Shown: piece by piece, positions 49,071 through 63,066 of the stretch
Layout of the letters: each line of letters starts with the position of its first letter
How positions within the stretch are numbered: position 1 is the stretch's first letter
Position numbers and translations under genes: made by a program
The notes under the pieces: model-generated
Told to the model about the DNA's origin: nothing
Databases searched by the model: none
Seen by the model: only the letters and a program-made list of their open reading frames with translations
DNA from: Bacillota bacterium
GTDB lineage: Bacteria; Bacillota; Sulfobacillia; Sulfobacillales; Sulfobacillaceae
Reading direction: 5' to 3'
DNA length: 64,000 bases
Assembly (NCBI GenBank): GCA_021841025.1
Contig: JAKBWA010000010.1
Coordinates: forward strand, 1 to 64,000

Positions 49071-50077
49071 GAAGCGGCCTCCTTACCACTCGGTTGTTTC
49101 TGTGGGTCAACGTGAAGCCAGCAGCTCACTTTTCTTCCTTCAGAAACCTCGGTCAACATGGGTACCTTCTCTCGGCAAATGTCCATAACCCTTGGACAAC
49201 GAGGCGCAAAACTGCAACCCTTAGGAAGATTGAGAGGATTAGGCACGGTCCCCTCAATAACATGCAACTTGTCGTTGGTCGGCTGATCCAAGCGGGGAAT
49301 AGAGTCCAATAATCCTTGGGTGTAAGGGTGCAAGGGTTCTCGGAACAAATCCGCGGTAGTACTTTCTTCGACAATTTTGCCAGCATACATCACCGCAACA
49401 CGATCCGCCATCTCGGCCACGACGCCCAAATCGTGGGTAATCAGCATTATAGAAGTATGAAATTCCCGTTTTAATTTTCGCATTAAGTCTAATATCTGAG
49501 CCTGTATCGTCACGTCAAGCGCCGTAGTCGGTTCATCAGCAATCAATAATTGCGGATTGCAAGACATAGCCATAGCAATCATGACCCGTTGGCGCATCCC
49601 GCCAGACATTTGATGCGGATATTCGTGCGCCCTTTTCTCCGGTGCAGGAATTCCCACTTCTCGAAGCATATCTACCGCCCGTTTCCAGGCTTCTCTTCTA
49701 TCCACTTTTTGGTGCAGTACTACGGCTTCTGCAATTTGATCACCTACAGTGTAAACGGGATTGAGCGATGTCATAGGCTCTTGAAAAATCATCGCAATAT
49801 CATTTCCCCGAATTTTCCGCATTTCTTCGGGAGATTTGGTTAGCAAGTTCTCGCCACGAAAGACAATCTCTCCTCCCACAATCTTCCCCGGCGGGCTTGG
49901 AATCAATTGCATAATAGAGAGAGATGTCACGCTCTTTCCGCACCCTGATTCTCCCACGATTCCCAATGTTTCTTCGGAATTAATATAAAAGCTGATTTGA
50001 TCTACGGATTTCACGACTCCGTCTTCGGTGAAAAAGTGGGTGCTTAAATTTCTGACATCCAAAACCCTCTCAGTCAC
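49067..50077 (-). CDS. Oligopeptide/dipeptide ABC transporter ATPase, OppD/DppD type
   Basis: This 336-residue ATPase has Walker [13 protein letters not shown]-loop [11 protein letters not shown], signature [14 protein letters not shown], Walker [18 protein letters not shown] and the oligo_HPY region [15 protein letters not shown] start at GTG 50077 with AAGGAG nearby; the frame is open to 50140. It is first in a two-gene unit with its own promoter at 50157-50185. Confidence 0.93.
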
Positions 50078-50156
50078 GTCGTTTGCTCCTTCCTCGATCA
50101 CACCGACTGAAAAATAAATAATGATGACATAATCCGACAATTGACTAATCTTATAT

Positions 50157-50185
50157 ATTATAAAGTCTTACTCCAAGCCCTGCAA
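50157..50185 (-). promoter_or_regulatory. Promoter of the opp ATPase pair
   Basis: TTGCAG (minus strand, 50185-50180), 17-nt spacer, TATAAT (50162-50157), 79 nt upstream of the oppD-like start codon. Confidence 0.75.
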
Positions 50186-50241
50186 TGGGCGCTGTTTCCT
50201 GCCCTGAAGAATGAAGCCAATGGCCGTTTCCGTCGATCTCT

Positions 50242-54434
<4,193 letters not shown>

Positions 54435-54442
54435 AATAGCCT

Positions 54443-54476
54443 CCCGTGATGTCCTCACTCTTCATTATATCACGGG
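54443..54476. promoter_or_regulatory. Dyad overlapping the pcrA promoter -10
   Basis: CCCGTGAT (54443-54450) and ATCACGGG (54469-54476) form an 8-bp inverted repeat 18 nt apart. The minus-strand extended -10 TGATATAAT overlaps the second arm (54472-54464), 30 nt upstream of the pcrA start. It could be an operator or a 5' leader hairpin. Confidence 0.5.
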
Positions 54477-54633
54477 ACCGCATTTGGTTCTTGAACCTCT
54501 CGCGAGCCGACAATCCGGTGCCTTGGCTTGGCGGAATTTTTCGAAAGAGCCGTTACAGTGTTGCTTTGCTCAGTCCCATGTCGTCATAGCAAGAAGGAAC
54601 CGTCCCGCCACAAACGAATACTCGATTCTTAGT

Positions 54634-54942
54634 TTAGTGAACTCCTTCACTCAGATACCAATCTGGTTCCAATTCAGAAGGCCACGTAACAAAATGCACA
54701 TGAACGGTTGAGGCGTTCGCACCGGTATCCAAGATAAAATAACCCCGATCAGAAGCATTTTCCTCTTCGGCAAAGTGTTGCCGCAATAAGGATTTTGCCA
54801 ATTGCACCAGTTCCGCTTGGGCTAGATCCCTATTTGGAATATTGTACCATATAGCTACTACATGGTCGTCGAGTCGACAAAACCCTTTTGTTTTTCCTTG
54901 CCAATAAAACCCGGACTCCATCAGCAATCGGGATAAATTCAA
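54634..54942 (-). CDS. Small protein of unknown function near pcrA
   Basis: This 102-residue protein begins MNLSRLLMESGFYWQGKTKG. TTG 54942 has GGAGGTGAGGCG at good spacing. It has no signal peptide, span or known motif; acidic stretches (HFAEEENASDR) and a Trp-rich end are the only features. It lies 48 nt downstream of the yerC-like gene in the same direction and might be co-transcribed with it. Function unknown. Confidence 0.6.
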   Translation of the reverse strand: MNLSRLLMESGFYWQGKTKGFCRLDDHVVAIWYNIPNRDLAQAELVQLAKSLLRQHFAEEENASDRGYFILDTGANASTVHVHFVTWPSELEPDWYLSEGVH

Positions 54943-54990
54943 CGCCTCACCTCCATGCTGCGTTAGCGTACTAAAGCATGAAAGAAAAAA

Positions 54991-55287
54991 TCACCGCGGC
55001 TTCGGCGAAATTCTGTCTAGAACCGTCCGATAACCATCTGCGCCGAAAGCCAAGGCTCTTTTAACACGAGAAATAGTGGCTGAAGACGCACCCGTAATGC
55101 GAGCAATATCATCATAAGTCTGACCCTGATCCAACATCTGTGCCACCCATAGACGTTGCGCAATAGATTGGAGTTCCTGAACGGTAAGAATATCCTCAAA
55201 AAAAGCCAAACACTCCTCTGTGGTCTCCACAGACTGAAAAGCGCGGCATAACAATTCCGTTTCAGGCGTCCTCAGTTTAAAATTCAT
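54991..55287 (-). CDS. yerC: YerC/YecD-family TrpR-like DNA-binding protein
   Basis: This 98-residue helical protein has LLCRAFQSVETTEECLAFFEDI, LTVQELQSIAQRLWVAQML and a helix-turn-helix DDIARITGASSATISRVKRAL, the YerC/TrpR superfamily pattern. In Bacillus yerC lies next to pcrB-pcrA-ligA, matching this location. GAGGTG precedes the ATG at 55287. A role in transcription control is inferred from the fold. Confidence 0.9.
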   Translation of the reverse strand: MNFKLRTPETELLCRAFQSVETTEECLAFFEDILTVQELQSIAQRLWVAQMLDQGQTYDDIARITGASSATISRVKRALAFGADGYRTVLDRISPKPR

Positions 55288-55762
55288 TCAATTCACCTCA
55301 AGACGAGCCGTCTCTCATTTTGCGACTCTTTCCATATCCTCCAGATCCAACAACTCTCACTCTAAGCATCATGTGGCGTATGACTTTAACAGCCAAAAAT
55401 TAACCTCGTTGACATACCGCATCCGATGTTCTGTCATCCCTCATTCCCAGAGCAACCATCACACACCTTCATTATTGTTATTATAGAGGGATTGCTAAGG
55501 GGAGTGCAATTCCCTATTCTCCGCACTCCTTAGAATGGTAGCCAAAACTCATTCCCTCGCCAGTTGAGTAGAGTTCGCATGGAGGGTAGACATCACAGGA
55601 ATTGGGAGAAAACACTGTTTTCTCCCAGCCTAAGGTGCCCTCGGACTCATTCTTATGTCAGGTCATAAAATGCCAAAGCACCCCTCATTCCCCTTGAATA
55701 TGGTGAATGACAATGCGACAATGATAATGAAAATCACTATTATTCATTAAGGGAGAGATGAT
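55288..55762. other. 475-nt divergent region before the peroxiredoxin gene
   Basis: Non-coding. An imperfect hairpin pairs 55495-55507 with 55523-55533 (CTAAGG.GAGTGC). A near-perfect 11-bp hairpin with a 3-nt loop lies at 55603-55627 (TGGGAGAAAAC/GTTTTCTCCCA). For the peroxiredoxin, GCGACA (55715-55720), 17 nt, TATTAT (55738-55743) is the best promoter candidate, with a Fur/PerR-like box in the spacer. Nothing else is supported. Confidence 0.5.
55722..55736 (+). promoter_or_regulatory. Fur/PerR-like operator upstream of the peroxiredoxin
   Basis: TGATAATGAAAATCA matches the 7-1-7 consensus TGATAATnATTATCA with two mismatches and lies between a plausible -35 and -10. Repression by a Fur-family metal or peroxide sensor would suit a peroxiredoxin. 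The choice between Fur and PerR cannot be made. Confidence 0.6.
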
Positions 55763-56212
55763 ATGCGCTTAGGAGACATAGCACCGGAAATTCAGGTTCA
55801 GTCTACCAACGGCTCCACCTTTTCATCCCGTGAGCACACCACCAATGGACCACTCATCGTGGCCTTCTTCCCATTAGCCTTTACTCCCGGATGAATTCAA
55901 GAATTGTCCACTTGGAGAGGGGACTTCAAAAAAATCCAAACCGCTCATGCGTCTCTTATTGCCTTAAGTACTGACCAAACATATGCCCAGCGTGTGTTCA
56001 AAGAATCACTGGGAGGCTTGCCATATGAATTGGGATCCGATTGGATGCGAACGGTTGCCCAAGCTTATGGGGTATATGACGCCAAGGGAGGATTTGCTCA
56101 ACGCTCCGTTTTCGTCCTCGACCGGGAGCATCGGCTGATCTTTCAAAATACAACATTCCAGGCCGGAAACCGCGAGCATTATGACGAAGTGCTTAATGCT
56201 TTGGTGGGGTGA
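55763..56212 (+). CDS. Peroxiredoxin with selenocysteine (in-frame TGA) at the peroxidatic position
   Basis: A 149-residue frame (including the TGA codon) runs from ATG 55763 to TGA 56210-56212 with one internal TGA at 55892-55894, codon 44. The surrounding peptide is AFFPLAFTPG-U-IQELSTW, so the stop falls exactly on the peroxidatic Cys of the PxxxTxxC motif. The N-terminal half is a normal thioredoxin-fold start (LGDIAPEIQVQSTNG), and the C-terminal part reads SVFVLDREHRLIFQ. The most economical reading is selenocysteine: a thiol-peroxidase with Sec at the active site, reducing H2O2 or organic peroxides. Gene callers would split it or start at 55904. A nonsense mutation is the alternative, but no other lesion is seen. 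GGGAGAG lies 5 nt ahead of the ATG. Confidence 0.85.
55901..55927 (+). promoter_or_regulatory. Candidate bacterial SECIS hairpin
   Basis: Six bases after the in-frame TGA, GAA-tt-GTCC (55901-55909) pairs with GGACTTC (55921-55927), with an upper C-U/A-G pair leaving the loop UGG about 18 nt downstream of the TGA. Size, spacing and a G-containing apical loop are compatible with bacterial SECIS elements, which are weakly conserved. Confidence 0.5.
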
Positions 56213-56424
56213 TAGGTCCTTTTCATCAACAACATCCCCGTGAAGACCCCGTGACTGTGAATCCCGGCGTGGAGAATCAGTCCTCAGTAGCACTGTTTGA
56301 CAATCCAATTGCCGTCACGGATGGGGCTTATGGACATGTCTCCCAGCCCGTGACGGGTTTTGTGAAGGCTTCCGAGTATCTTCCTGACAGAAAAAATGCT
56401 CAGAATGTTGGCAAAAATTGCTAA
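56209..56424 (+). CDS. Small ORF coupled to the peroxiredoxin
   Basis: A 71-codon frame starts at GTG 56209, overlapping the peroxiredoxin stop (GTGA), and contains ENQSSVALFDNPIAVTDGAY. No transmembrane segment or known motif is visible. Translational coupling is the only support; the reverse strand is open across part of the same stretch, which weakens the call. Function unknown. Confidence 0.35.
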   Translation: MIGPFHQQHPREDPVTVNPGVENQSSVALFDNPIAVTDGAYGHVSQPVTGFVKASEYLPDRKNAQNVGKNC

Positions 56425-56513
56425 TCGTATCGAACGCGGGCAAAAAGCGGGCCACAGACAACTAACTCATGGTTGTCAAGAATTAGCCACGGATTAGTTG
56501 GCGAAAAAACTGG

Positions 56514-57143
56514 TTATCCGGCACTTCCACCCGATGAGCTAGAAGAGGGCTTAGATGAAGAAGACGAACCACCGGAAGAAGACGCCCCCCCTGACGAAGA
56601 AGAGGACTTCCCGGAACTGCTTGTAGATGATGACGATGACGCCATTTTGACCAGACTCATTTTCACTGCAGTATCAATCATGGTGGTAATTTGCGGTGAA
56701 CTTAAAGATTTTGTCACTTCAGTCTCCATTGTCTTTTGAAACGCAGGGCTACTCATCACTTGCATGACCGCCTTTCCCAGCTCTGACTGTCCAGCCGTCG
56801 TCATTAAGGCCTGTTGCAGCTGGCTCGTCGATATCGTCTCCGCGATGAGCCGCTGCATCCGGGGCGTTTCCATTTCATCGCGCACAGCCTTTTGTATTTC
56901 CATGGGAGGAGCCGAACCTGATGAGGAACCAGATGCTCCTCCGCCATTTGTTGACGAACCGCCCTGGGACGCTGAACCAGATCCGCCCTTGGACGACGTT
57001 GAATCCGAGCTCGACCCTCCACTTTTACCAGTGGATGCCGTGCTTGAGTGCTCAGGAGATGGGGCTCCCATCGTAAAACTGCAAGCGGGCGTCACCATCA
57101 CCATCACACTCATAAGAGTTACCCCCCAAAACTTCCACAACAT
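56514..57143 (-). CDS. Serine/glycine-rich lipoprotein resembling GerD
   Basis: This protein of about 209 residues has a signal peptide ending in VTPAC (lipobox-like), a Ser/Gly/Thr-rich linker, a helical core (about 75-170) with MQRLIAETISTSQLQQAL and MSSPAFQKTM, and a Ser-rich tail. The core pattern recalls GerD, the spore-germination lipoprotein scaffold. The low-complexity ends vary easily. I take ATG 57143, with GGAGGAGG upstream; the frame opens at 57170. It lies just downstream of purD on the same strand. Confidence 0.55.
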   Translation of the reverse strand: MLWKFWGVTLMSVMVMVTPACSFTMGAPSPEHSSTASTGKSGGSSSDSTSSKGGSGSASQGGSSTNGGGASGSSSGSAPPMEIQKAVRDEMETPRMQRLIAETISTSQLQQALMTTAGQSELGKAVMQVMSSPAFQKTMETEVTKSLSSPQITTMIDTAVKMSLVKMASSSSSTSSSGKSSSSSGGASSSGGSSSSSKPSSSSSGGSAG

Positions 57144-57214
57144 CACCCGTCGAATGCCTCCTCCGAACACAACATGATTGTGTATTCAGAGTGCCCTAAA
57201 CCGATGAAACTTAC

Positions 57215-58492
57215 TCAGTGGATCCCTTCTCGCGCAATGTCATCCCGGTATTGGCTTTGGGGAAAACGGATGGCTGCAACTTGCCGGTAACTTTGTTCCC
57301 GGGCAGCATCCAGCTGGGAGCCCACGCCCACTACGGTTAACACGCGACCCCCTTTGGCTTGCAAATGCCCGTTATCACGCACTGTAGCCCCGTGGAATAC
57401 TAACCCGCCGGGGGATGAATCGATGTCCACGAATTGACCGGTTACGGGCTGCCTGGGATATCCTTCGGATGCCATCACCACAGCTACGGCAGCTTTTTCT
57501 GGATCCGGCATACGCATCTCCAACAAATGTCCCTGGCCTAACGCCCACCACCACGCCGTCCAGGGAATGTTTAAAACAGGGATCATCACCTCAGTCTCGG
57601 GATCTCCCAAACGCACGTTAAATTCCAGCACTTTGGGTCCATCTGAAGTCATCATGAGTCCCACATACAAGATTCCCCGATAAAGCAAGCTTTCTTGCGC
57701 GATGGCTTGAACAACCGGTCTCAAAATCGTGTCGTCAATCTTTTTCCGTTCCTGGGAGCTCAACCAGTCGACGGGAGCATAAGCGCCCATACCCCCGGTA
57801 TTTGGACTATGAGGATCGGCGTTCAAACGTTTGTAGTCTTGCGCTAATGGCAACCAGACATAGTCCTTGCCATTGGTGAGAATATGCACAGACACTTCAC
57901 GCCCGACAAGGCATTCTTCGGCGAGGATCCCATCATCATAGACGTGCGGATCGCCACTCCACCGGGCAATCGCTTCCAACCCCTCGTCACGGTCCGTCGC
58001 AACCACAACGCCTTTACCTTGGGCCAGCCGGCTTTGTTTTAACACGAGTGGCCATATCTCGCGCGTCATAAGAAACTTCTGCAATTCGTCCGGATTATAA
58101 AAAATTTTCCATGAGGCCGTCGGAATCCCATAACGGTTCATAAACCGTTTCGCAAAGGTCTTGCTGCTCTCTAACCGGGCCGCTTGTTGTGAGGGGCCTA
58201 CGACGACATGTCCTTGACCGCGCAACATATCGGCCACACCTTGAGCCAATGGGTCTTCTGGGCCTACCACCACCAACAAACACCCTTTGTCTTCTGCCCA
58301 CCGGGCAATATCACTAGGAGTGTAAGCCGGGACACATATGGCGAAGTCCGCAATGCCGGCATTTCCAGGCGCCGCGTAAATAGGCCCAGATGGCGCATCT
58401 TGGGAAATGCCCCATAAGATGGCGTGTTCACGAGCCCCTTGGCCGATCACCAAAATTCCCGAAATCTTTGATTGCGGCAATAAACCCGTCAT
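57215..58492 (-). CDS. purD: Phosphoribosylamine-glycine ligase
   Basis: PurD, 425 residues, joins 5-phosphoribosylamine with glycine using ATP (second step of de novo purine synthesis). It is an ATP-grasp enzyme: ILVIGQGAREHAILW, VVVGPEDPLAQGVAD, SRLAQGKGVVVATD, NTGGMGAYAPVDW and EFNVRLGDPETEV. It is the last gene of the pur operon, 18 nt after purH. Motifs are intact. Confidence 0.95.
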   Translation of the reverse strand: MTGLLPQSKISGILVIGQGAREHAILWGISQDAPSGPIYAAPGNAGIADFAICVPAYTPSDIARWAEDKGCLLVVVGPEDPLAQGVADMLRGQGHVVVGPSQQAARLESSKTFAKRFMNRYGIPTASWKIFYNPDELQKFLMTREIWPLVLKQSRLAQGKGVVVATDRDEGLEAIARWSGDPHVYDDGILAEECLVGREVSVHILTNGKDYVWLPLAQDYKRLNADPHSPNTGGMGAYAPVDWLSSQERKKIDDTILRPVVQAIAQESLLYRGILYVGLMMTSDGPKVLEFNVRLGDPETEVMIPVLNIPWTAWWWALGQGHLLEMRMPDPEKAAVAVVMASEGYPRQPVTGQFVDIDSSPGGLVFHGATVRDNGHLQAKGGRVLTVVGVGSQLDAAREQSYRQVAAIRFPQSQYRDDIAREGIH

Positions 58493-58510
58493 TGTCTATT
58501 CCCTCCTCCC

Positions 58511-60040
58511 TTAGTGGCGAAAATGCCGCTCTCCCGTAAAGTAGAGTGGTATTTGATACAGATTGGCTTGTTCGATGGATTCGTTGTCCCGTAGCGATCC
58601 GCCCGGTTGAATTACCAAACCAATACGGTATTTCGCCGCTTCCTTCATAACATCCCCGAAGGGGAAAAACGCATCAGACGCAAGAACAGCTCCGGCAGCT
58701 TTCTCCTTAGCTTGTTCTAAAGCCTGACGGGCAGCATCGATTCGGTTGGTGTGCCCTCCCCCAATTCCCACAGTCATTCCGTCTTTCACGACAACAATCG
58801 CATTTGACTTGACAAATGCAACCGTCGTCCACGCCAACATGAGATCCGTCTTCCACGAGGCGAGATCCGTCTTAGGACCCCCGGCATGTTTCAGTATGTC
58901 AAATGGCAGCGTCACGACATCGCGCGTTTGAACTAAGAATCCGCCTTGAATAGTGCGGAGTTCTTCGGAATAGGCTGGTAACTCAAAGGGCATCGCAAGA
59001 ACTCGCAAATTTTTCTTTTTGGCCAAAACAGCGAGGGCATCCCGGGTGTAATCTTCAGCAATGACAACTTCCAGAAAGAGACTAATTAGACGCTGCGCCA
59101 GGTGTTCATCAACTGTTCCTTTCACAGCCACGATGCCTCCGAAAATCGACACCGGATCGCTTTCATAGGCCTTGATGTAAGCCTCTTCCAAAGTCGTGCC
59201 CAAGCCCACTCCTGAGGGAGTTTGGTGTTTGATTGCAACCGCATTCGGGGCGGGCAAGCTCGATGCAAGACGCCACGCAGTATCGGCATCAGCCAGATTA
59301 TTGTATGATAGCCCTTTCCCTTGATAAAGGGTGGCATTTTGAAATCCTGTTTGTCCAGCAACAGCATAGAAAGCGGCAGATTGATGAGGGTTTTCTCCAT
59401 AGCGCAATTCGCCCCATCGTTGTCCGGTAATTGTAAAGACTTCCTGGGTAACAGGCCTCACAGGCGGATCCGTCCATTGGCTCAAAGCGCCGGCAATCAC
59501 AGCATCATAGTGGGCAATATGAGAAAAAGCCTCTTGGGCACGGCTCAACCTGTCCGTGATAGACATTTCTGCCACCGGCACCCGTAATGCTTCCGGATAT
59601 TGCCGGGGGTCCACCAAAACCAAGGTGCGGACGTAATTTTTTGCCGCAGCACGGATCAGCGATACTCCTCCAATATCAATTTCCTCGATCAGTTGGTCCC
59701 TACTGGCGCCTTCTTGCCAACGGGTTTCGAAAGGATACAAATTCACAACCACCGCAGCAATCTTGGGTGCTCCGATGCTTTCACGATCCTTTGCATCGTC
59801 AGTGGTTTCGCGGGACAAAATACCTGCATAAATGCGGGGATGAAGCGTCTTTACCCGTCCCGACAAAATCTCGGAAAATCCGGTGAGGTCTTCCAAAGGC
59901 GTAACGTCAATGCCTTCATTTTGCAAAAATCGGTAGGTGCCTCCACTGGCTAAAAGTTTGATACCTTGGGCCAAAAACCCCCGTGCCAATTCCGCTAATC
60001 CCGTTTTGTCACTAACACTCAATATTGCCCATTGATCCAT
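58511..60040 (-). CDS. purH: AICAR transformylase/IMP cyclohydrolase
   Basis: PurH, about 509 residues, performs the last two steps to IMP. The N-terminal cyclohydrolase domain shows AILSVSDKTGLAELARGF and GRVKTLHPRIYAGIL; the transformylase domain shows RYGENPHQSAAF, NAVAIKHQTPSGVG and SNAIVVVKDGMTVGIG(G). ATG 60040 follows GGAAGGAG; the frame opens 18 nt earlier. It overlaps purN by 22 nt. Confidence 0.96.
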   Translation of the reverse strand: MDQWAILSVSDKTGLAELARGFLAQGIKLLASGGTYRFLQNEGIDVTPLEDLTGFSEILSGRVKTLHPRIYAGILSRETTDDAKDRESIGAPKIAAVVVNLYPFETRWQEGASRDQLIEEIDIGGVSLIRAAAKNYVRTLVLVDPRQYPEALRVPVAEMSITDRLSRAQEAFSHIAHYDAVIAGALSQWTDPPVRPVTQEVFTITGQRWGELRYGENPHQSAAFYAVAGQTGFQNATLYQGKGLSYNNLADADTAWRLASSLPAPNAVAIKHQTPSGVGLGTTLEEAYIKAYESDPVSIFGGIVAVKGTVDEHLAQRLISLFLEVVIAEDYTRDALAVLAKKKNLRVLAMPFELPAYSEELRTIQGGFLVQTRDVVTLPFDILKHAGGPKTDLASWKTDLMLAWTTVAFVKSNAIVVVKDGMTVGIGGGHTNRIDAARQALEQAKEKAAGAVLASDAFFPFGDVMKEAAKYRIGLVIQPGGSLRDNESIEQANLYQIPLYFTGERHFRH

Positions 60041-60630
60041 GATTTCGACTCCTTCCAAATTACCTGATTGCCTTCCAGCGCCACGAGTCCTAAGTCCACA
60101 GCATCTACGATCCGGGGATACAACTGATGTTCATGATAGTGAATTCGCATGCGCAGATCATCCACGGTATCCTCGCGGTAGCGCGGGACCGCCGCTTGGG
60201 CAATGATCGGACCCGTATCATGACCATTGTCAACAAAATGAACCGTCACACCCGTCCAAAATACTCCGTAATCAAACGCCTGTTCGATGGCATTGAGTCC
60301 GGGAAAGGCAGGGAGGAGTGCAGGGTGCAGATTAATGGCTCGTCCCAGGTAGTAATTGACGGTGGATGAATCCAACCATCGCAAATATCCTGCTAAAGCC
60401 AAAGCCTCGATTCCCTCGTCATTTAGAAGGTTAAGAAGCGCTTGGTCGTATGCTTGCCTTGTAGCAAAACTTTTGGGAAGAAGGGTTTTGCTGGGAATTC
60501 CGAATTTTTGAGCCACCTCGAGCGCACGAACATTCGCTTTGTGAGACACTACCAAAGAAATCGGATTTCCGTACTCCAGCATTGCTTCCAAATTACTGCC
60601 ATAACCTCCCACTAGCGCCGCCCACTTCAC
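60019..60630 (-). CDS. purN: GAR formyltransferase
   Basis: PurN, 203 residues, transfers formyl from 10-formyl-THF to GAR. It has ALVGGYGSNLEAMLEY (phosphate loop), LAGYLRWLDSS, NLHPALLPAFPGLNA and the catalytic TVHFVDNGHDTGPII with Asn/His/Asp. Its start overlaps the purM stop by 4 nt. Motifs are intact. Confidence 0.95.
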   Translation of the reverse strand: MKWAALVGGYGSNLEAMLEYGNPISLVVSHKANVRALEVAQKFGIPSKTLLPKSFATRQAYDQALLNLLNDEGIEALALAGYLRWLDSSTVNYYLGRAINLHPALLPAFPGLNAIEQAFDYGVFWTGVTVHFVDNGHDTGPIIAQAAVPRYREDTVDDLRMRIHYHEHQLYPRIVDAVDLGLVALEGNQVIWKESKSWINGQY

Positions 60631-61658
60631 GTCCAGATCACTCCTTGTTTCTCGCTGGTTTGAACAATCCGGCCAATGGCGTATGACTTAATGCCTTGGT
60701 CTTCCAAAACAGATTGCGCGGATTCGAGGTGCTTTGGAGCAATTACCACCGTGAACCCAATCCCGTCATTAAACGTTCGACGCCACTCATCATCATCCAC
60801 GGGACCTAATTTCTGTATCCATTGCATCAAGGCAGTGCGAGGCCACGAACGCGAATCAATCATTGCGGCAAATCCTTGAGGAAGTGTCCTGGGCACGTTC
60901 TCTGTCAGACCGCCCCCGGTAATGTGAGCCATGGCTTTAACAGACACCCGGGTCCACAGCGTTTGAACAGCCTGGACATAAATTTGAGTCGGAGTCAGAA
61001 AGCTCTCACCTAAGGTTGTGGGCTCTATTTCCGGATAACTTCGGTTCCAGTCCAACTGGTTATCCCGCACAATTTTCCGCAAGAGCGCATAGCCATTGGA
61101 ATGAAATCCACTAGAAGCCAGACCTAAAAGCACGTCCCCTTCCTCCACGGGTTCGGGTGGTGTATAAGCTTGACGTCCCACGCAAAATCCCGCCAAATCA
61201 AAATGAGTGGGCTGGTACAGATCAGGCAACTCCGCAGTTTCCCCGCCCAAAAGCGTACAATGTGCCCGCATACAGCCTTCGGCTACACCCTGGATAAGCT
61301 GTTCAATTGTGCTGGGAACAATTTCATGAGTAGCAATGTAATCTAAAAAGAATAAAGGTTCTCCACCTTGCGCCAAAATATCGTTAACATTCATAGCGAC
61401 AAGGTCTATACCGATAGTATCCACTTTGCTTAATTCTTGAGCAATCAGCAGTTTGGAACCCACACCGTCAGCACCGGCCAACAACACTCCGGATTGTTGC
61501 CATGCAAAGGAACCGGCAAACCCTCCGACCCCTACTACGACTTCAGGGCGATAGGTTTTAAGTGCCCAGGGCTGAATTCTTCGTACAGCTTCATTGCCCC
61601 GGTCAATATCGACGCCGGCGTCTTTATATCCCAATGACTTCCTGTTTCGACCTGTCAT
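60627..61658 (-). CDS. purM: AIR synthetase
   Basis: PurM, 343 residues from ATG 61658, closes FGAM to AIR. Motifs are KSLGYKDAGVDIDRGNEAVR, VGVGGFAGSF, GADGVGSKL, MNVNDILAQGGEPLFFLDY and HITGGGLTENVPR. Frame continues 61 codons further upstream inside purF, but the 343-residue form is the normal length and lies 4 nt after the purF stop with a GGCGG site. Confidence 0.95.
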   Translation of the reverse strand: MTGRNRKSLGYKDAGVDIDRGNEAVRRIQPWALKTYRPEVVVGVGGFAGSFAWQQSGVLLAGADGVGSKLLIAQELSKVDTIGIDLVAMNVNDILAQGGEPLFFLDYIATHEIVPSTIEQLIQGVAEGCMRAHCTLLGGETAELPDLYQPTHFDLAGFCVGRQAYTPPEPVEEGDVLLGLASSGFHSNGYALLRKIVRDNQLDWNRSYPEIEPTTLGESFLTPTQIYVQAVQTLWTRVSVKAMAHITGGGLTENVPRTLPQGFAAMIDSRSWPRTALMQWIQKLGPVDDDEWRRTFNDGIGFTVVIAPKHLESAQSVLEDQGIKSYAIGRIVQTSEKQGVIWT

Positions 61659-61662
61659 CTCA

Positions 61663-63066
61663 TTAATTGCCGCCTTTCGTGACACTGAGAGGAGTACTCG
61701 TTTCATCTTGTAAGGGCACGGGATAACCTGCTCCAAAACATGCCATGCACCAACCGCCTTGAGACAGCCCCGCTTTGAGGCCCCCCAAAGATAAATAGGC
61801 CAGGGAATCGGCGCCGACCGCCTTCCGAATCTGCTCAACATTCATATTACGCGCCGCCAACTCCGTAGCCCGGGATGTGTCTATGCCGTAATAACACGGA
61901 TCGGTGTAAGGAGGTGACGCGATTCGCATGTGCACCTCCTTGGCCCCGGCATGGCGCAGAATTTGAATTAAATGCCGCGATGTGGTTCCCCGCACCAAAC
62001 TGTCATCAACTAATACAATACGCTTCCCGTCGACAACTTCTTTGACAGCAGACAGTTTTAATTGCACACCGGCTTCTCGAAGAGCTTGATTCGGAGTAAT
62101 GAAAGTCCTGGCGACATAGCGGTTCTTGACCAACCCCATGTCAAATGGAAGATTACGGGCCTTAGCATATCCCATCGCGGCCGGGGTGCTAGAGTCTGGC
62201 ACCCCGATGACAACATCCGCATCGACGGGAGCCTCTTTCGCCAGTATTTCACCCAGCCGGCGTCGCACCATATGCGTGCTTTGGCCTTCCATACGCGAGT
62301 CTGGACGGGCAAAGTAGATCATTTCGAAACTGCATAGAGCACGGCCTGTCTCAAAACTTACAAACCGATCACTTTCAATGTGACTCTCCCGAATTGTGAT
62401 CAATTCCCCGGGCTCAATCTCCCGAACATAATGCGCGCGAATCGCATCGAAAGCACAAGATTCGGAAGCCAAAACATACGCACCTTCCTCGGTTCTGCCG
62501 AGAGCCAAGGGGCGAATGCCCCGGGGATCACGGGCACCATATAAAGCATCTTGCGTCAAAACAGTAAATGCAAATCCCCCTAGAAGTTTGGCCAAGGATT
62601 CCTTAAGCGCCTCGTAAAATGAGTCGCGCCCACTTCTGGCTATGAGATGAGCGAGCACCTCACTGTCTGTGGTTCCTTGAAAGATAGCTCCTTCTTTTTC
62701 CAGTTGTTGCCGAAGATTGGCACCATTCACCAGGTTGCCATTTTGACCCAGGGCTAGAAGGCCAAAACGCGTTTTCATCAACAGAGGTTGAGCATTCACA
62801 ATGGATGATTCCCCCGTCGTGGAATACCGGACATGGCCCATAGCAGCAAAGCCCAAACGCTGGCTTTCGGTCTCCACCTTAAGCGCTTCGGTTACAAGCC
62901 CCATCCCTTTATGGACCGTAATTTCCTCCTTATGCAAGACCGCCAGCCCCGCGCTCTCTTGCCCGCGATGCTGAAGGCTAAACGTACCCCAATACGACTT
63001 TAATGCCGCCTGGCTGTCCCCAAAGATCCCAAAAACCCCGCATTCATCATGCAACTCGTCTGCCAT
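61663..63066 (-). CDS. purF: Glutamine PRPP amidotransferase
   Basis: PurF, 467 residues, makes phosphoribosylamine from PRPP and glutamine. The Ntn catalytic Cys follows a short propeptide (MADELHDE-CGVFGIFG). The PRPP loop is IVLVDDSLVRGTTSRH, and C-terminal cysteines (GGWCMACFG) fit the Fe-S-containing Firmicutes type. It lies 2 nt after the partial purL. Motifs are intact. Confidence 0.96.
   Translation of the reverse strand: MADELHDECGVFGIFGDSQAALKSYWGTFSLQHRGQESAGLAVLHKEEITVHKGMGLVTEALKVETESQRLGFAAMGHVRYSTTGESSIVNAQPLLMKTRFGLLALGQNGNLVNGANLRQQLEKEGAIFQGTTDSEVLAHLIARSGRDSFYEALKESLAKLLGGFAFTVLTQDALYGARDPRGIRPLALGRTEEGAYVLASESCAFDAIRAHYVREIEPGELITIRESHIESDRFVSFETGRALCSFEMIYFARPDSRMEGQSTHMVRRRLGEILAKEAPVDADVVIGVPDSSTPAAMGYAKARNLPFDMGLVKNRYVARTFITPNQALREAGVQLKLSAVKEVVDGKRIVLVDDSLVRGTTSRHLIQILRHAGAKEVHMRIASPPYTDPCYYGIDTSRATELAARNMNVEQIRKAVGADSLAYLSLGGLKAGLSQGGWCMACFGAGYPVPLQDETSTPLSVTKGGN

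Follow-up and report, generated by a model that had tools for sequence, protein, structure and literature searches.

A peroxiredoxin gene of Sulfobacillaceae with an in-frame UGA almost certainly read as selenocysteine

A reading frame interrupted at the active site

The window, the whole stretch of 64,000 nucleotides analysed here, contains a peroxiredoxin-like reading frame with a TGA in its interior, which raises the question of whether this codon ends translation or encodes selenocysteine (Sec). The features of the gene are as follows.

55763..56212, + strand: predicted Sec-peroxiredoxin gene, 149 residues, with its real stop TGA at 56210-56212
55892-55894, + strand: in-frame TGA, codon 44, at the peroxidatic Cys position of PLAFTPG-U; almost certainly read as selenocysteine
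55906..55924, + strand: putative SECIS hairpin (RNA of the + strand), 7 base pairs with one bulged A

The ATG start is preceded by GGGAGAG, which resembles a ribosome-binding site. The sequence-only reading had proposed one open frame across the TGA with peroxiredoxin sequence on both sides. With the TGA translated as Cys for the database searches, the product matched the Pfam family AhpC-TSA over residues 4-125 (79.6 bits against a cut-off of 26, 2.4e-22) and the Redoxin domain (1.7e-13), which bears out the proposal. Codon 44 of the frame 55763-56212 is also, as claimed, exactly the catalytic position of the PxxxTxxC/U motif. The frame contains no further lesion, and the translated protein has no Cys. 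The expected truncation in standard annotation was found as well: the standard ORF list gives only 55904-56212, an ORF of 102 aa with a TTG start that falls after the active site. Gene callers without a model start at TTG 55904, and the protein is easily lost.

Conservation of the TGA among orthologues

Protein searches of the own genome and 60 relatives identified 22 orthologues in two families of the order, the window copy included; the others are 41-89% identical to it. Named close relatives such as S. benefaciens AMDSBA1, the orthologue of which shows 89% identity, would also indicate the genus of the window DNA. Every one of the 22 has exactly one in-frame TGA, located at the T-x-x-U codon. 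The alignment at codon 44 recommended by the sequence-only reading therefore returned TGA in 22 of 22 and the Cys form in none, and the close relatives, in which a Cys codon had been named as the contrary outcome, carry the same TGA. Most orthologues lack Cys altogether, and some have one Cys ~24-26 residues after Sec.

Comparison of the window copy with the orthologue L021 showed 16 synonymous and 7 nonsynonymous codon differences before the UGA and 37 and 9 after it. Against its two congeners, synonymous changes likewise prevail among the codons before and after the UGA. Judged from these codon changes, both halves of the gene are under constraint.

An orthologue with the UGA at the same codon is present on a plasmid of Planococcus lenghuensis (L116:1477-1962, 41.8% identical). 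Its CDS record (WP_332309485.1, named redoxin domain-containing protein) continues through the UGA, indicating that the NCBI pipeline already reads this gene through. Like the window gene, it has a hairpin in the same place, with a GGA loop. However, its host lies outside the acidophile order, and its placement within the Sec clade is weakly supported (82/27). The presence of a UGA orthologue on this plasmid suggests horizontal spread.

A nonsense mutation or sequencing error in an ordinary Cys-peroxiredoxin gene would account for the splitting of the gene by standard ORF calling and could be reconciled with the absence of selB from this assembly. However, the identical TGA in 22 orthologues and in the Planococcus plasmid gene, the constraint on both halves and a frame free of other lesions leave this explanation a negligible probability; the conservation of the TGA across families refutes it. 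The earlier argument that a chance hit on this very codon is improbable is strengthened accordingly, as the same codon is TGA in separate assemblies (22 orthologues with the own copy) and on the plasmid.

In a tree of 59 rows, the Sec sequences (22 rows, Planococcus included and one near-duplicate omitted) form a clade with a support of 99/92 and no Cys member. The Cys forms and a second Sec-peroxiredoxin group (WTPVU) are placed outside it. This second subfamily (YPLAWTPVU, with a Cys 31 residues later) was observed in other genomes of the family (L042-L044, L046-L049). The clade represents a distinct, mostly Cys-free, Sec-only subfamily, apparently one of aerobic acidophiles, a life style generally known for this group of bacteria.

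The downstream hairpin and the selenocysteine machinery

The hairpin that had been predicted just downstream of the TGA was located at 55906-55924, with the apical loop GGAG at 55914-55917. It is placed 14-32 nt from the UGA, and the spacing between the UGA and the loop is 19 nt. Bacterial SECIS elements are defined by a loop of 3-9 nt with a G in the first two loop positions, an upper stem of 4-16 bp, a UGA-loop spacing of 16-37 nt and an energy of at most -7.5 kcal/mol (PMC13188914). The hairpin of the window gene lies within these ranges (GGAG, 7 bp with one bulge, 19 nt), in energy only just (-7.5 kcal/mol over 48 nt from the UGA, -7.2 for the 27-nt hairpin alone). In the other orthologues, the stem occurs in the same place, shifted by one or two bases, and an invariant UGG codon supplies the GG of the loop.

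An Rfam search of 50000-62000 gave no match. RNAalifold on the ungapped 48-column alignment found no consensus pairs, and fixed-register pair counts on the whole set were weak, probably because the register of the stem shifts between clades. Synonymous recoding and clade-wise pair counts were used in their place. The real RNA was more stable than random synonymous recodings in 21 of 21 orthologues, which share ancestry and are not 21 independent tests. When the recoding test was slid along the gene, the mean z reached about -1.6 to -2.1 only where the window began 6-12 nt after the UGA; at 15 nt there was a shoulder of -1.2, and elsewhere the values lay between about -0.6 and +0.6. The recoding results indicate that the hairpin is selected beyond the protein sequence.

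The sequence-only reading had called for a search for selA, selB, selC and selD. This search succeeded for selA (539 bits), for selD, which has a UGA of its own (U in SGUGCK), and for the beginning of selC at the edge of a contig, and failed for selB; the genome without selenocysteine genes that had been named as counting against Sec is not what was found. Contig C22 of the own genome (G000) ends 16 nt inside selC (L085:1545-1560). The last 60 nt of this contig are 90% identical to the start of selC in a congener, and in both C22 and G005 selC is preceded by a cysteine synthase gene. Since the assembly breaks 16 nt into selC, annotation would report no tRNA-Sec, and the 118 contigs yielded no complete tRNA-Sec. 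The RF01852 matches in the own genome proved to be tRNA-Ser, tRNA-Leu and other tRNAs, none of them tRNA-Sec. Within the group, true tRNA-Sec(UCA), selA and selD do occur. A further Sec-peroxiredoxin candidate of the own genome, its third selenoprotein candidate, is Prx6/AhpC-like (L079:1002-1667, HPADFTPVU).

No selB was found in the 118-contig assembly; the selB model gave only matches under its cut-off there, whose sizes suggest EF-Tu, IF-2 and other translation GTPases. The 4.9 kb around selB in a congener likewise had no DNA match in the assembly, whereas selB was above the cut-off in seven of the seven congeners searched. It could be argued from the missing gene that the species has lost selB, which would turn the UGA into a stop and make the gene the very recent remnant of a working selenoprotein. 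However, selA, the UGA-containing selD and the start of selC are retained, the peroxiredoxin gene itself is without decay, and the neighbours of selB are missing too, as a gap would produce. Such a loss is thus very improbable, and the absence of selB and its neighbours fits an assembly gap.

The UGA might also be decoded as another amino acid, through reassignment to Trp or through a tRNA-Cys that reads UGA. Related genomes do contain long-arm tRNA-Cys genes of the selC* kind, and a UCA anticodon has been published for some selC* tRNA-Cys (PMC7609411). However, the long-arm tRNA-Cys examined here all have a GCA anticodon, tRNA-Sec(UCA), selA and selD exist in the group, and a SECIS-like hairpin is under selection. 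Reassignment to Trp was rejected, since the gene uses TGG for Trp and TGA as its own terminator. Overall, decoding as another amino acid is highly unlikely. The long-arm tRNA-Cys(GCA) genes, which resemble tRNA-Sec and are of the described selC* kind (PMC7609411), were seen in several genomes of the order (L118, L120, L121, L122, L123) and not in the own genome.

Sec insertion at codon 44 is strongly supported by these comparisons. The sel genes in the genome, the TGA kept in relatives and the hairpin selected beyond the protein sequence agree with the original proposal that the UGA specifies selenocysteine, and the in-frame UGA is almost certainly read in this way. We estimate a probability of roughly 95% that UGA 55892-55894 encodes the Sec of a 1-Sec peroxiredoxin, inserted through SelB and the downstream hairpin. 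At this codon, the hairpin would recruit SelB together with Sec-tRNA(Sec), and Sec would be inserted where translation would otherwise end.

The predicted enzyme and its setting

Among proteins of solved structure, the best sequence matches are archaeal Bcp-type proteins and AhpE of M. tuberculosis. An AlphaFold model built with 15 orthologues (pLDDT 96.4) has Bcp4, BcpB and AhpE as its nearest solved folds, with a TM of 0.91 to 3hjp, and the predicted structure has the thioredoxin-like fold of an AhpC/TSA peroxiredoxin. P37, T41, residue 44 and R114 are invariant (n=15 sequences). The 1-Cys peroxiredoxins of the AhpE/Bcp type (M. tuberculosis AhpE, BcpB; Sulfolobus Bcp4) are thus the best matches in both fold and sequence; the window protein retains their catalytic Pro, Thr and Arg, but has Sec in place of Cys and an identity of only 26-28%.

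The protein is likely an AhpE-like peroxidase of the 1-Sec type that depends on an external thiol for resolution. With P37, T41 and R114 as activating residues, the Sec selenolate would attack peroxides and be converted to a selenenic acid. Since the protein itself lacks cysteine, this selenenic acid would have to be resolved by an outside thiol, presumably a reductant of the thioredoxin, glutaredoxin or low-molecular-weight-thiol type. Both the peroxidase activity and the reductant are assigned from established peroxiredoxin chemistry.

Sec-peroxiredoxins (Prx, PF00578, TxxU) are an established selenoprotein kind (PMC13188914, PMC1794560), and the window gene is a true representative of this kind, though a poorly annotated one. 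PrxU of Eubacterium acidaminophilum and other bacterial Sec-peroxiredoxins share the AhpC/TSA fold, the PxxxTxxU motif and the peroxidatic Sec (PMC13188914, PMC1794560). However, the window protein scores 40.7 bits against the PrxU model NF040737 (cut-off 270), and its subfamily is shorter, usually Cys-free, a separate clade and apparently one of aerobic acidophiles. The thiol peroxidase Prx-SUH (NF045827) likewise contains selenium and has a peroxiredoxin fold, but the window protein scores only 35.7 bits where 298 are required. With the window protein, none of the NCBIfam models attains its cut-off.

A Sec-containing formate dehydrogenase has been reported in all Sulfobacillus genomes of one study (PMC4378227). 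A Sec-peroxiredoxin named PrxU is reportedly upregulated on ore in S. thermotolerans (PMC7409299), in a text from which its identity with the window gene is not deducible. No paper describing the Sec-only subfamily was found in the literature searched, which left most subscription journals outside. The subfamily adds a defined group for selenoprotein models and offers a clean 1-Sec enzyme for testing the advantage of Sec over Cys. Iron- and sulfur-oxidising acidophiles live under strong Fenton stress. Surveys tie the use of Sec more to anaerobic life (PMC1794560), and a Sec-only peroxiredoxin clade maintained in these oxidisers is a useful counter-example to this association.

One further feature lies upstream of the start:

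55723..55741, + strand: Fur-box-like site GATAATGAAAATCACTATT, 16/19 to the Fur consensus; presumptive function

Similar sites were found only in the two congeneric orthologues, and their presence hints at an iron-linked control of the Sec-peroxiredoxin in the genus of the window.

The Sec-peroxiredoxin copies of this genus stand alone. Elsewhere, the end of a cysteine-synthase-like gene falls from 4 nt inside to 80 nt ahead of the peroxiredoxin start in 11 orthologues, and nine are followed by a rhodanese-like gene downstream. It is conceivable, though we consider it unlikely, that the Sec-only, mostly Cys-free subfamily of aerobic extreme acidophiles, often in an operon with cysteine-synthase-like and rhodanese genes, has its selenenic acid resolved by sulfane sulfur or a cysteine-derived low-molecular-weight thiol, not by a resolving cysteine or thioredoxin. 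The cysteine-synthase-like gene is directly upstream of the Sec-peroxiredoxin in L023, L024 and L026-L034, with the rhodanese-like gene downstream in many of these loci.
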